Source: Nitrosomonadales bacterium
GTDB taxonomy: Bacteria; Pseudomonadota; Gammaproteobacteria; Burkholderiales; Gallionellaceae
Reading direction: 5' to 3'
Assembly (NCBI GenBank): GCA_016199835.1
Contig: JACQFX010000013.1
Span: 62,001-126,000 of the forward strand
DNA length: 64,000 bases
The position numbers were made by a program, and so were the translations under genes. This document shows positions 12,438-17,272 of this stretch, piece by piece (the first letter of the stretch is position 1; each line of letters opens with the position of its first letter). Below the pieces are notes generated by a model, which had not been told where the DNA came from, searched no databases, and saw only the letters and a program-made list of their open reading frames with translations.

Positions 12438-13217
12438 TCAAGGCAGGACGTAACCGTATTTCTTGAGGATGGCGCGCGCCTTGGGCGAGAACAAGAAAGC
12501 ATAAAACTTGTACACGGAATCGGCCTGCGTCTCTTCGCCATGTTTCAGGATGACTGCACTTTGCGCGATGGTATCGTAATTCGCCTTAGGTATTTCCACC
12601 CATTTCCCCTTGCCCGCCATGTCTGGCGCAATCACCACGGACTTGGCGATAAAGCCGATGTCCGCCGCACCAGAGTCCACAAACTCTGCGGTTTGCGTGA
12701 CAGTTTCCCCGAATACCAGCTTGGGCTCGACCGTCTTGCCCAGCCGGGCTTTTTCTATCGCCTTGAGTGCCGCACGCCCATAAGGCGAGATTTTGGGATT
12801 GCAAATGGCGACGGTTTTTATTTGCTCGTCGCCTAACAGCTTCACACCCCGGCTCAAGTCCAGCTCCTTCGCTGTCCACAGCACCAGCACACCATGGGCA
12901 TAAACCCTGGGATGGCTGGCCGCCAGCCCTTTCTTGTATAGCTCTTCCGGGAAATCGGTGTCGGCTGAAATGAAGACATCGAATGGCGCACCGTTCTTCA
13001 CTTGCGTGGCAAGCTTGCTCGACGAGCCAAACACGCCTTTCACCTCCATGCCATATTCGGTCTTGAACTCGGCAGCAATATCGTCAAAAGCAAATTGCAC
13101 ATTCTCCGCTACGGCAACGGTGAGCGGTTCTGCCTGGGCCAACATACCCTGCCACAGCAACAGGGCTGCCATTCCCAGCATGCGCAACGAATCTATCAAA
13201 CCACTCTTGTTCATCAT
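12438..13217 (-). CDS. modA: Molybdate ABC transporter substrate-binding protein (ModA, copy 1)
   Basis: A periplasmic oxyanion-binding protein (259 aa) with a signal peptide ending near AQAEP, then the ModA start LTVAVAENVQFAFDDIAAEF. The ligand-loop regions FGSSSKLATQV and ISADTDFPEELYKKG and the SGAADIGFIAKS segment follow. It delivers molybdate to ModBC. It lies downstream of modC; a second modA heads the group at 16832. The two are clearly related in sequence but not identical. Confidence 0.93.
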   Translation of the reverse strand: MMNKSGLIDSLRMLGMAALLLWQGMLAQAEPLTVAVAENVQFAFDDIAAEFKTEYGMEVKGVFGSSSKLATQVKNGAPFDVFISADTDFPEELYKKGLAASHPRVYAHGVLVLWTAKELDLSRGVKLLGDEQIKTVAICNPKISPYGRAALKAIEKARLGKTVEPKLVFGETVTQTAEFVDSGAADIGFIAKSVVIAPDMAGKGKWVEIPKANYDTIAQSAVILKHGEETQADSVYKFYAFLFSPKARAILKKYGYVLP

Positions 13218-14217: not shown

Positions 14218-14304
14218 CGTCATTCCCGCGAAAGCGGGAATCCAGCGGGGTAAAACAAAATGCATCTTTGACTGCATGGATTCCCGCTTTCGCGGGAATG
14301 ACGG
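14218..14304. repeat. CGTCATTCCCGC-type inverted repeat between modB and modC
   Basis: Arms 14218-14245 and 14278-14304 are near-perfect reverse complements. The hairpin core is GCGAAAGC in one arm and its complement in the other, unlike GCGCAGGC in the copy at 5533. Confidence 0.85.
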
Positions 14305-14327: not shown

Positions 14328-15002
14328 TCACCACTCGCTCCTGACCATGCGTTTGTTCACCAGATACACCGTGAGCAAAATACTGAAGCACACCGCAAAC
14401 AACACCATCGCATAGAAATTCGCCGCCGCATAATTGAGCGATTCCACTTCGTCATAGATGGCGATGGAAGCCACACGCGTCTCGCCCGGCAGGTTGCCGC
14501 CTATCATCAGCACCACGCCGAATTCGCCTATGGTGTGCGCGAAAGCGAGCACGATACCGGACAACAACGACGGTTTGATATTGGGCAGCAGCACGTACAG
14601 AAAAGTCTGCCAGCGCGTCTTGCCCAAGGTGTAGGAGGCCTCGGCCAGCGAGGCGGGCAGACTCTGGAATCCAGCCTGCACCGGATGCACCATGAACGGC
14701 AGGCTGAACAGCACCGAGGCCAGCACCAGCCCTTCAAAACTGAACGCGAGCTTCAAGCCAACGGCCTGATCCATAAAGTGACCGAACCAGCTCGTCGGGC
14801 TGAACGCCAGCAGCAGATAGAAGCCCAGCACCGATGGCGGCAACACCAGCGGCATGGACACCAGCGTTTCCAGCACCGGCTTGATGCGCGTTCTTGTCTG
14901 CGACAGCCACCACGCGAAAGGGATGCCGATCAGGCACAGGATGAAAGTGGTCACAGCGGCCAGCTTGAAGGTAAGCAGCAGCGGTTGCCAGTCATAGGTC
15001 AT
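14328..15002 (-). CDS. modB: Molybdate ABC transporter permease ModB
   Basis: The permease (224 aa) begins MTYDWQPLLLTFKLAAVTTF and has about five membrane segments. The cytoplasmic coupling loop is ASLAEASYTLGKTRWQTF, the EAA motif that contacts ModC. The family VLPPSVLGFYLL segment is near residue 50. The frame is open 60 bases further upstream, but that part is repeat sequence, so the ATG at 15002 is chosen. It lies directly downstream of the DUF559 element. Confidence 0.95.
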   Translation of the reverse strand: MTYDWQPLLLTFKLAAVTTFILCLIGIPFAWWLSQTRTRIKPVLETLVSMPLVLPPSVLGFYLLLAFSPTSWFGHFMDQAVGLKLAFSFEGLVLASVLFSLPFMVHPVQAGFQSLPASLAEASYTLGKTRWQTFLYVLLPNIKPSLLSGIVLAFAHTIGEFGVVLMIGGNLPGETRVASIAIYDEVESLNYAAANFYAMVLFAVCFSILLTVYLVNKRMVRSEW

Positions 15003-15022: not shown

Positions 15023-15058
15023 CCCTTCCCCTCTCAGGGGGAAGGTTAGGATGGGGGT
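15023..15058. repeat. Left end repeat of the DUF559 element
   Basis: CCCTTCCCC, a short loop and GGGGGAAGG form a hairpin, followed by TTAGGATGGGGGT. The same sequence in inverted orientation lies at 15419-15455. This copy overlaps the last codons and stop of the DUF559 gene. Confidence 0.85.
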
Positions 15059-15408
15059 GCAACCGTCAAACTTGCCACAATCGTTGACAACACCCCATCC
15101 AGATTATTCAAAACATCGTTATTCCAAAAGCGCAAAACCTGCCAGCCATGCAGTCGTAGAAAAGTAGTTCTTTGTTCATCGTATGCAAGCTGTTCTTGAT
15201 GTCGCCCACCATCAAGCTCAACAACAATTTGCTGCTCAATACAGGCGAAATCTGCAATATATTGCCCGATAGGATGCTGACGACGAAAGCGCTGGCCGTT
15301 AAGTTGCTTGCCTCGCAATGCCCGCCAGAGCAAACGCTCGGCATCGGTCATGTCATGTCGAAGCGACCTTGCTCTGGCAGTTGTTACCAAACTTATTCTT
15401 CTTGTCAT
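15046..15408 (-). CDS. DUF559 (Vsr-like) endonuclease domain protein
   Basis: A 120-aa protein of the DUF559 family, related to very-short-patch-repair endonucleases. It shows the family order: LRHDMTDAERLLWRALRGKQ, FRRQHPIGQYIADFACIE, the acidic core VVELDGGRH, DEQRTTFLRLHGWQVLRFWN and the terminal NNDVLNNLDGVL. The Asp of IADF and the Glu of VELDGG fit the PD-(D/E)XK-like active site. MTRRIS at 15408 is the chosen start; the frame further upstream is repeat-derived. It sits alone between two inverted copies of a 36-bp repeat within the mod genes. No cognate methylase is present. Biological role unknown. Confidence 0.85.
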   Translation of the reverse strand: MTRRISLVTTARARSLRHDMTDAERLLWRALRGKQLNGQRFRRQHPIGQYIADFACIEQQIVVELDGGRHQEQLAYDEQRTTFLRLHGWQVLRFWNNDVLNNLDGVLSTIVASLTVAPPS

Positions 15409-15418
15409 CGAGTGCCAT

Positions 15419-15455
15419 ACCCCCATCCTAACCTTCCCCCTGGACGGGGGAAGGG
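15419..15455. repeat. Right end repeat of the DUF559 element
   Basis: Inverted copy of the repeat at 15023-15058 (ACCCCCATCCTAACC, then CTTCCCCC...GGGGGAAGGG). It overlaps the 3' end of modG and encodes that protein's last residues. Confidence 0.85.
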
Positions 15456-15877
15456 ATATGGTCAGTATCTGCATTTCCAACCTCCATCAACGAAACCTCG
15501 TTCGCCTTCACCAGCGCTTCCACCGCATCGCCCTGCTCCAGAACCAGCCGCTGCGCCGCGCGCGTGGTGATGATGCTGGTGATCGTCTGCCCCTGATAAT
15601 CGAGCATCACTTCGCTGAGTATGGCGCCGTTCCTGATCTGCGTGACCACGCCCTTGATGCGGTTGCGCAAACTGATCTGGCCGGAGAGATTCTTCGCCAG
15701 CGACACTTCGGTCTCCTTGAACAGCACCACCACCGCATTGCCGACTTTCAGATAGGGTGCATCCTGCGGCGTTTCCATCAGCATGGCCGTGAACGTATCC
15801 TGCCCGACGGCCACATCCACCAGCGAGAGATGATCGTTGGATTCGATGGCGGTGATGATGCCGGGCAAACGGTTCAT
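15428..15877 (-). CDS. modG: Di-Mop molybdenum-pterin/molybdate-binding protein (ModG type)
   Basis: A cytoplasmic oxyanion-binding protein with two tandem Mop/TOBE domains: residues about 1-68 (MNRLPGIITAIESNDHLSLV onward) and about 71-138 (NRIKGVVTQIRNGAILSEVM onward). Proteins of this kind bind and buffer molybdate. The ATG at 15877 is chosen because the MNRL-type start aligns with the repeated NRIKG start of the second domain; the frame upstream has no homology. The last dozen residues (DTDHIPSPVQGEG) are encoded by the neighbouring repeat, so the native C-terminus has been replaced. Confidence 0.88.
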   Translation of the reverse strand: MNRLPGIITAIESNDHLSLVDVAVGQDTFTAMLMETPQDAPYLKVGNAVVVLFKETEVSLAKNLSGQISLRNRIKGVVTQIRNGAILSEVMLDYQGQTITSIITTRAAQRLVLEQGDAVEALVKANEVSLMEVGNADTDHIPSPVQGEG

Positions 15878-15989
15878 GGCAAAGCGTTGCTCCCTGTATG
15901 CATGTACCTGCTGGGACACTAAGTTTCGGCTAAATCCGGGATGACCATTCGCATAGTACATCACCGAAATCAGCCAGGCAGCCAATTAG

Positions 15990-16076: not shown

Positions 16077-16832
16077 TCATGGCAGCACGTATCCGTATTT
16101 CTCGAAGATAGCGCGCGCCTTGGGGGTGAACAGAAAATCCACGAACTTGTGTGCGGCTTCCGATTGCGTATTGGCCCCGTGCTTGAGCACGACCACGGCT
16201 TGCGCGATGGGCTCATAACTTCCTTTGGTAACTGCTACCCACTTGCCTTTGCCCGCCAGCTCCGGCGCGATCACGATGGACTTGGCGATGAAGCCGATGT
16301 CTGCCGCGCCCGAATCCACAAACTGCGTGGCCTGCGTGATGCTCTCGCCATACACCAGCTTGGGAACGATGACCGCATCAAGCTTCGCGCTTGCCAGAGC
16401 CTGCATAGCGGCGCGCCCGTAAGGCGCAACCTTGGGATTTGCGATGGCGATCTTCTGCACGCTGGCGTCGGCCAGCAGCGGCAGGCCTTTGTTCAAGTCC
16501 ATATCCTTGGCCGTCCACAACACCAACACACCGTAGGCATAAATGCGCGGTTGCGTGACCGCCAGGCCGTCCTTGTATAGCGCTTCGGAATATTCGGTGT
16601 CGGCGGACAGGAAGGCGTCAAACGGGGCTCCGCTCTTGATCTGCGTCGCGATCTTGCCCGCTGCGCCGAACACGCCGTTCACTTCGATGCCGGTATCTTT
16701 CCTGAATTCGGCGGCAAGATCGTCGAAGGCATATTTGACGTTTGCAGCAACCGCGACAGTAAGCGGTGCGGCGGATACCGGCATACCGCTCGCGCATAAC
16801 ATGACAAAACACAGAAATAGGCGCAAAGACAT
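16077..16832 (-). CDS. modA: Molybdate ABC transporter substrate-binding protein (ModA, copy 2)
   Basis: A second periplasmic ModA (251 aa) from the ATG at 16832, with a signal peptide ending in PVSAAP and the mature start LTVAVAANVKYAFDDLAAEF. The same boxes as copy 1 are present (FGAAGKIATQI, LSADTEYSEALYKDG, DSGAADIGFIAKSIVIAPEL), and the C-terminal EKYGYVLP is nearly identical, so the two look like duplicates that have diverged. Its position at the promoter-proximal end of the mod group, 62 bp after the last nifV-operon gene, suggests nif-linked expression. Confidence 0.93.
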   Translation of the reverse strand: MSLRLFLCFVMLCASGMPVSAAPLTVAVAANVKYAFDDLAAEFRKDTGIEVNGVFGAAGKIATQIKSGAPFDAFLSADTEYSEALYKDGLAVTQPRIYAYGVLVLWTAKDMDLNKGLPLLADASVQKIAIANPKVAPYGRAAMQALASAKLDAVIVPKLVYGESITQATQFVDSGAADIGFIAKSIVIAPELAGKGKWVAVTKGSYEPIAQAVVVLKHGANTQSEAAHKFVDFLFTPKARAIFEKYGYVLP

Positions 16833-16894
16833 TTCAACTCCATGAATGATGTCGATACTATGGCATGAACACCTGCCATGCCAACAGATGATGT

Positions 16895-17272
16895 CTACGT
16901 CGGCATCATCGCCAGCCGCGTATCCGTCTGGATCTTGCCGTCGCGCACCCATGCCTCTACCGCCTCGATGAACAAAGCCGGGCGGTTCGGGTGCGGGCGC
17001 ATGATGTGGTATTCGGCAAAACTGCTGCCATCAGAATGGAACAGCAGAAAGCCGATGCAATAGTGTTGCGAGGGAAAAAAGGCGGCGCGCAGAGTTTGCT
17101 GGCCGTTGTAGAGGTCGTGCTCCAGCGTGAAGCGCGCGGCTTCGAATTGCGGGATGGTGATGGCATCGCCCGGCAGGTTGAGCTTGGTGATCTTTTCCTG
17201 CAAGGCGGCGATCAGCTCCGCACCATGTGCTGATGCGGAAGCGATGCGCTGTTTGATGAGTTGCTGTTCCAT
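16895..17272 (-). CDS. Unknown 125-aa protein in the nifV-mod gene run
   Basis: Not assigned to a family. The sequence is soluble-looking, with an N-terminal helical part (MEQQLIKQRIASASAHGAEL) and a mixed alpha/beta remainder containing FPSQHYCIGFLLFHSDGSSF and HPNRPALFIEAVEAWVRDGK. One cysteine, no signal peptide, no membrane segment. It lies on the same strand between another unknown gene and modA, downstream of nifV-nifW, so a role linked to nitrogen fixation or molybdenum is inferred from context only. Confidence 0.7.
   Translation of the reverse strand: MEQQLIKQRIASASAHGAELIAALQEKITKLNLPGDAITIPQFEAARFTLEHDLYNGQQTLRAAFFPSQHYCIGFLLFHSDGSSFAEYHIMRPHPNRPALFIEAVEAWVRDGKIQTDTRLAMMPT

Follow-up and report, generated by a model that had tools for sequence, protein, structure and literature searches.

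RAYTs, the enzymes of REP/REPIN-RAYT systems, are Y1/HUH transposases, and Vsr-like homing endonucleases sit in introns or next to inteins. Rickettsia palindromic elements (RPEs) are palindromic DNA found in frame inside protein genes; to our knowledge, they encode no enzyme. The boxC/PIT triplex repeats of Escherichia coli have been known since the 1990s, and boxC/PIT/TM repeats of E. coli and other bacteria were reportedly described by Hoyne in 2000 as forming intrastrand triplexes. We know of no origin or enzyme assigned to the boxC/PIT repeats so far.

The TM repeat has been characterized as a purine-motif intrastrand triplex, present in 23 copies in strain MG1655, with the consensus CCCTCNCCC N3-6 GGGNGAGGG N3 GGGNGAGGG; its loci are unstable in E. 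coli, no association of the repeats with mobile elements was found, and the main text of that study does not contain the word "nuclease" (Holder et al. 2015, PMC4666352). In Caulobacter, DNA is damaged in vivo by a DUF559 protein once the partner methylase of that protein is lost, and Caulobacter VsrA has been proposed as a mismatch repair enzyme (PMC12907096). A published link between DUF559 genes and repeats was not found in our literature search, which had most of the subscription literature outside its reach.

The nuclease gene and repeats between modG and modB

The window, the whole stretch of 64,000 nucleotides from a member of the Gallionellaceae that was analyzed here, carries on its minus strand a modG-like gene encoding a TOBE domain, a repeat, a DUF559 gene, a second repeat, and modB, in that order. 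An inverted-repeat search and a match to PF04480 bore out the original prediction of a single DUF559 gene between inverted 36-nt repeats at the modG-modB junction. The modG-like gene (15428..15985, minus strand) matched TOBE in two stretches, and its start is uncertain; the modB permease gene (14328..15002, minus strand, BPD_transp_1), with its ATG at 15002, forms the far flank of the insertion site. The gene between them (15046..15408, minus strand) was assigned by Pfam match and model as encoding a PD-(D/E)XK, Vsr-like nuclease, and matched PF04480 with an E-value of 9e-42 and 141.8 bits against a gathering score of 20.6. The ORF as listed has 144 residues and starts at a TTG within modG; the start is likely the ATG at 15408, giving a protein of 120 residues. 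The columns of catalytic-type residues in DUF559 (E, D, E-x-D-G, H, D) were invariant.

The predicted structure of the nuclease had a mean pLDDT of 78, with the core above 90, and matched, in order, 3hrl (another DUF559 protein), the homing endonuclease I-Bth0305I, and Vsr. I-Bth0305I (PDB 3r3p) was thus the first match outside DUF559, with a TM-score of 0.79 by target length and a sequence E-value of 3e-4, so that the predicted fold is that of a homing-type nuclease. The dN/dS ratio was 0.07-0.17 in nine of the ten pairs for which it could be estimated, indicating that the nuclease is under purifying selection; the tenth, at 0.48, was the Variovorax pair with exchanged cassettes described below.

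Both repeats are of the type we designate A. One lies 3' of the nuclease gene (15023..15058, plus strand) and was recognized as an inverted repeat with a mirror third strand; the other, inverted relative to its partner, lies 5' of the gene (15419..15454, minus strand) and was recognized by the same features and from the ORF list. The 36-nt arms are 86% complementary and are separated by 360 nt. Each consists of a hairpin (CCTTCCCCC-loop-GGGGGAAGG) and a G-rich tail (TTAGGATGGGGG), with both tails facing the gene; in the arm at 15023..15058, the hairpin CCTTCCCC..GGGGAAGG is followed by the spacer TTA and then by the third strand GGATGGGGG toward the gene. The nuclease stop codon (15046-15048) falls in the left repeat, and the arm at 15419..15454 codes for the C-terminus of the modG ORF (...IPSPVQGEG), so that our ORF reading upheld the earlier description of one repeat encoding the end of modG (PSPVQGEG) and the other holding the nuclease stop.

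The G-rich tail mirrors the purine arm except for one A>T change, and is triplex-compatible. For the third strand of the window arms, the mirror match was 1.0 and the direct match 0.56-0.75, as in a hairpin with a mirror-image purine third strand, and among asymmetric arms at all loci the third strand mirrored better than it directly copied in 84 cases versus 23 (P=2e-9). The flanks of a second type, B (CCCTCTCCC-loop-GGGAGAGGG-TTR-GGGTGAGGG), match the boxC/PIT/TM consensus, while the A-type repeat of the window does not fit the published TM consensus letters. Judged by this mirror rule at the sequence level, the window repeats belong to the boxC/PIT/TM architecture, with A-type letters that differ. 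In the Rickettsiales genome G427 (C15, C19), the repeat occurs in tandem arrays with regular periods of 50 nt and 103 nt.

In relatives, modB orthologues 76-80% identical to that of the window adjoin modG with no insert. In three of them (G007, G009, and G016), modG and modB overlap by approximately 11 nt (ATGRRCTATGA), and in G024 a different spacer of approximately 125 nt, devoid of DUF559, separates the two genes. The check for an empty site that had been proposed thus found the gene missing at the mod position in four relatives. The 3' end of modG comes from the inserted unit in the window and lies within the start of modB in relatives. The empty state of the junction in relatives indicates that the unit was inserted there in the lineage of the window.

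The surrounding region has further repeated features. Between modC and modB, at 14219-14303, two copies of another palindromic repeat family (CATTCCCGCGAAAGCGGGAATCCA) lie in inverted orientation, and this pair is a candidate for another doublet-like insertion in the mod operon. Two similar genes for modA-type binding proteins (12438-13217 and 16077-16952) stand on either side of the mod genes.

DUF559 genes and their repeats in other genomes

DUF559 loci were drawn from the host family, from its class, and from 80 GTDB genomes of many phyla. At each locus, the 200 bp on the left were aligned locally (+1/-1, gap -2) to the reverse complement of the 200 bp on the right, and the best alignment gave the score. 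A score of at least 20 was reached at 65% of 113 single-gene DUF559 loci versus 0.43% of 4685 random intervals from the same loci. With one locus counted per orthologous site, 56 of 92 (61%) scored at least 20 and 68 of 92 (74%) at least 16, leaving about a quarter of DUF559 sites with no clear inverted repeat. A frequent link between DUF559 genes and such repeats, as put forward in the original prediction, therefore holds at most sites. Neither of the two findings that were to refute the prediction, the gene at the mod position in all relatives or DUF559 genes nearly always lacking flanking repeats, was made. A 22-nt core of the repeat, with up to 3 mismatches allowed, occurred in 20 copies in the genome of the window and in none for a reversed control; together with the 0.4% of random intervals scoring 20, this argues that the window repeats are not due to chance. 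Among 369 genomes of the class, at least 10 TM copies were found in 33 of the 78 having a strong DUF559 match versus 16 of the 257 having none. DUF559 itself is patchily distributed, being present in 36 of 60 relatives.

The type of repeat was compared with the relatedness of the nucleases. Within the host family, repeat similarity tracked protein similarity (Mantel r=0.67, 0/2000); outside it, in the broader set, the correlation was weak (r=0.07). When repeat types A, B, and D were placed on the nuclease tree, 2 changes were needed, the minimum, versus 14.3 with shuffled labels. Several nuclease clades may share a genome, each with its own repeat type: the genome of the window has the A-type unit and a B-type unit (L001), and G018 has types B and D. 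Copies of the A-type repeat numbered 20-55 in five relatives having a nuclease at least 67% identical to that of the window and at most 15 in the other 31 family members (Fisher 2.7e-6, with the 67% cut picked after the data were seen). In Variovorax guangxiensis (L065) and Variovorax sp. E3 (L070), a common site with flanks 92-94% identical holds a B-type cassette in one and, in the other, an A-type cassette whose nuclease is distant (dN 0.52), and at the same site two more genomes have A-type (L108) and B-type (L073) cassettes, each with the matching nuclease. These comparisons show, as far as sequences can, that nuclease and repeat type descend together and that cassettes are exchangeable at one site. 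Several cassette sites were orthologous across genera. One small Rickettsiales genome has a DUF559 cassette in valS and another in mfd (L054 and L077), and the two differ in repeat type.

No transposase was found in the unit, since Pfam and fold comparison gave only the PD-(D/E)XK, Vsr-like nuclease, and no consistent target-site duplication was seen across the cassette loci compared. Lacking both, the unit is not an insertion sequence or MITE. The other DUF559 gene in the genome of the window, with B-type repeats (L001, 1361-1940), lies between direct copies of a 68-bp segment that duplicates the beginning of a permease gene. A universal long target duplication was rejected, because the 68-bp repeat is missing from L025 and L026, whose related cassettes occupy the same junction, and direct repeats at L144, L077, L153, and L115 proved to be spacers of repeat arrays rather than target duplications.

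In-frame insertion and the boxC repeats of E. coli

Where a long open frame ran through DUF559, it turned out to be a host gene with an in-frame interruption. The profile of the host protein matched on both sides of the insert in HrpA, MetG, two ValS proteins, Mfd, HsdR, an MmeI-like enzyme, and an AsnB-type amidotransferase; in IspE, HsdS, HsdM, Mod-type methylases, and an M14 peptidase, the profile matched on one side and the other side was recognized by eye. Natural domain fusion was rejected for the in-frame copies, as the host profiles resume past the insert, and Pfam and NCBIfam scans of 20 in-frame hosts detected no splicing (intein) domains around the nuclease. These cases were found by way of long open frames and give no rate of out-of-frame insertion. 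The copy in the window is intergenic and merely lengthens modG; the in-frame cases are related cassettes. In a Rickettsiales genome, the interrupted ValS was the only ValS found, in an assembly that is perhaps incomplete. The idea that solo TMs are usually intragenic was discarded, as gene-less TMs were nearly all intergenic in the Rickettsiales genome. Many in-frame hosts are restriction-modification genes (HsdS, HsdM, HsdR, MmeI-like, and Mod-type; L042, L152, L244, L247, L250-L255).

One codon of HrpA, within ERFxxHF|xGAP, was found in three states. It is empty in most relatives, contains an in-frame insert of approximately 13-22 residues in G000, G003, G013, and G020, which in at least three of these genomes is a lone repeat, and holds full cassettes in G022, G029, and G035. 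The repeat in G003 is oppositely oriented, which suggests an independent insertion. The genome of the window (G000, L282) itself has a solo triplex repeat in frame in hrpA at this codon. A linker in MetG likewise occurs in empty, solo-repeat, and full states. The compared sequences thus show that the association of nuclease and repeats is general, that sites occur in empty, solo-repeat, and full states, and that they lie between genes or in frame in proteins.

In E. coli, the DUF559 gene is ycjD, located between sapF and fabI in approximately 3360 of 5426 genomes. Copies resembling boxC adjoin ycjD on one side only, downstream, and no repeat lies 5' of the gene. In most of the ycjD-less strains looked at, the eef operon occupies the place of ycjD; a clean insertion of ycjD was rejected, since the other allele carries the eef operon and the difference is hence a replacement (PMC12817139). 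Among 60 evenly sampled records, matched places numbered 10-24 in the 37 with ycjD, the ycjD match included, and 1-14 in the 23 without it, a comparison confounded by phylogroup. The boxC doublet between hrpB and mrcB is missing in EC958 (ST131) and in two further strains that were read, leaving the interval approximately 100 bp shorter, and in strain UTME-10 (L204) the middle of this doublet is deleted and one composite hairpin remains. The boxC doublet between ygfF and gcvP was rejected as a case of insertion, there being no clean empty site.

Candidate explanations and comparison with known systems

We consider the unit to be probably a minimal homing-like selfish cassette, consisting of a Vsr/homing-type nuclease gene and two inverted copies of its own triplex repeat. 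The earlier suggestion of a minimal unit of nuclease and terminal repeats gains support from the cassette swap, from the co-divergence of nuclease and repeat, and from the series of empty, solo, and full sites. The homing-like reading also draws on the generality of the association, including the class-wide link of copy number and gene, on in-frame insertion, on the purifying selection on the nuclease, on its closest characterized structural match being a homing endonuclease, and on the DNA damage that a DUF559 protein causes in vivo (PMC12907096). The nuclease would nick or cut DNA at the target or the repeat, and repair by the host would fill the break with a copy of the cassette, as happens in homing. 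The repeats, being stop-free in the frame used, would be read as Pro/Gly/Ser-rich linkers, which would let operons or linkers within proteins tolerate the cassette, and the host gene would supply its expression. Loss of the nuclease gene would leave solo repeats or doublets, and the boxC/PIT repeats would be gene-less relatives of the cassette, perhaps still mobilized in trans. Counting against a homing-like cassette are the approximately one in four DUF559 sites where no inverted repeat was clear, the 16 DUF559-less genomes with at least 10 repeats, the weak correlation outside the host family, the sites orthologous across genera, which make many copies long-term residents, and the one-sided boxC-like copies and eef replacement at ycjD.

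The main rival, which overlaps with the homing-like reading, is a REP-RAYT-like system in which DUF559, as a structure-specific nuclease, acts directly on the repeats and moves them as solos or doublets instead of homing into empty sites; the cassette would then be just one of many repeat pairs. The scattered solos and inverted doublets, the solo repeats at the HrpA codon with one oppositely oriented, and own-type copy numbers that follow the nuclease would all fit. We nevertheless regard it as unlikely, since the fold lacks transposase chemistry and is nearest to Vsr and a homing endonuclease, and since in the one genome examined the gene-less repeats are mostly intergenic whereas the cassettes are in frame within genes. 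The lack of a consistent duplication, the long-resident copies, and the gene-less genomes rich in repeats argue against both of these readings.

It is quite improbable that DUF559 is a resident host nuclease, a Vsr-like repair enzyme whose neighboring repeats are local regulatory or terminator structures and not element ends. The low dN/dS, the orthologous positions across genera, and the proposed mismatch repair role of Caulobacter VsrA (PMC12907096) are in its favor, but it accords poorly with the patchy distribution among relatives, the Variovorax swap, in-frame insertion in unrelated essential genes, and own-type repeats scattered elsewhere in the genome. Very unlikely, in our judgment, is that triplex-prone repeats spread by accidents of replication or recombination and that DUF559 is cargo caught between two of them. 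It is true that the TM loci of E. coli show instability (Holder et al. 2015, PMC4666352) and that TM-rich genomes lacking DUF559 exist, but chance capture predicts neither the strict matching of nuclease clade to repeat type nor high own-type copy number only alongside the matching nuclease.

Returning to the homing-like cassette, we put forward tentatively, at somewhat less than even confidence, that it is a new mobile element: a transposase-free homing cassette that inserts in frame in essential proteins, is translated with them, and is the source of boxC/PIT families across phyla. It may explain the origin of the boxC repeats of E. coli, for which it provides a candidate enzyme directly testable in strain K-12 through ycjD. 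If this is true, DUF559, a widespread domain of unknown function, gains a likely role, a further enzyme class joins the selfish systems of repeats and nucleases, and nuclease domains are translated within ValS, MetG, HrpA, and Mfd.

The cassette resembles a homing or REP-RAYT element and is a member of neither, as it has no HUH transposase, intron, intein, or consistent duplication. Like REP/REPIN-RAYT systems, it places an enzyme gene between inverted palindromes, with gene-less solos and doublets dispersed, but its enzyme is a predicted PD-(D/E)XK, Vsr-like nuclease rather than a Y1/HUH transposase, and its gene-bearing units insert in frame within proteins. It shares with homing endonucleases of the I-Bth0305I type the nuclease fold and a distant sequence similarity; unlike them, the DUF559 gene is bounded by its own repeats, with no intron or intein domain. 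Caulobacter VsrA and E. coli YcjD are likewise DUF559 proteins, and ycjD adjoins boxC-like copies but differs in having no repeat on its 5' side and in replacing the eef operon. Hairpin and third strand, as well as solos and inverted doublets, are common to the boxC/PIT/TM repeats, which have been described only as repeats of no assigned origin, neither associated with mobile elements nor linked to a nuclease, whereas the A-type repeats of the window follow the same mirror rule in other letters. In the related cassettes, as with the RPEs, palindromic DNA lies in frame in protein genes, but the DUF559 insert can hold a whole nuclease domain, and does so in several phyla.
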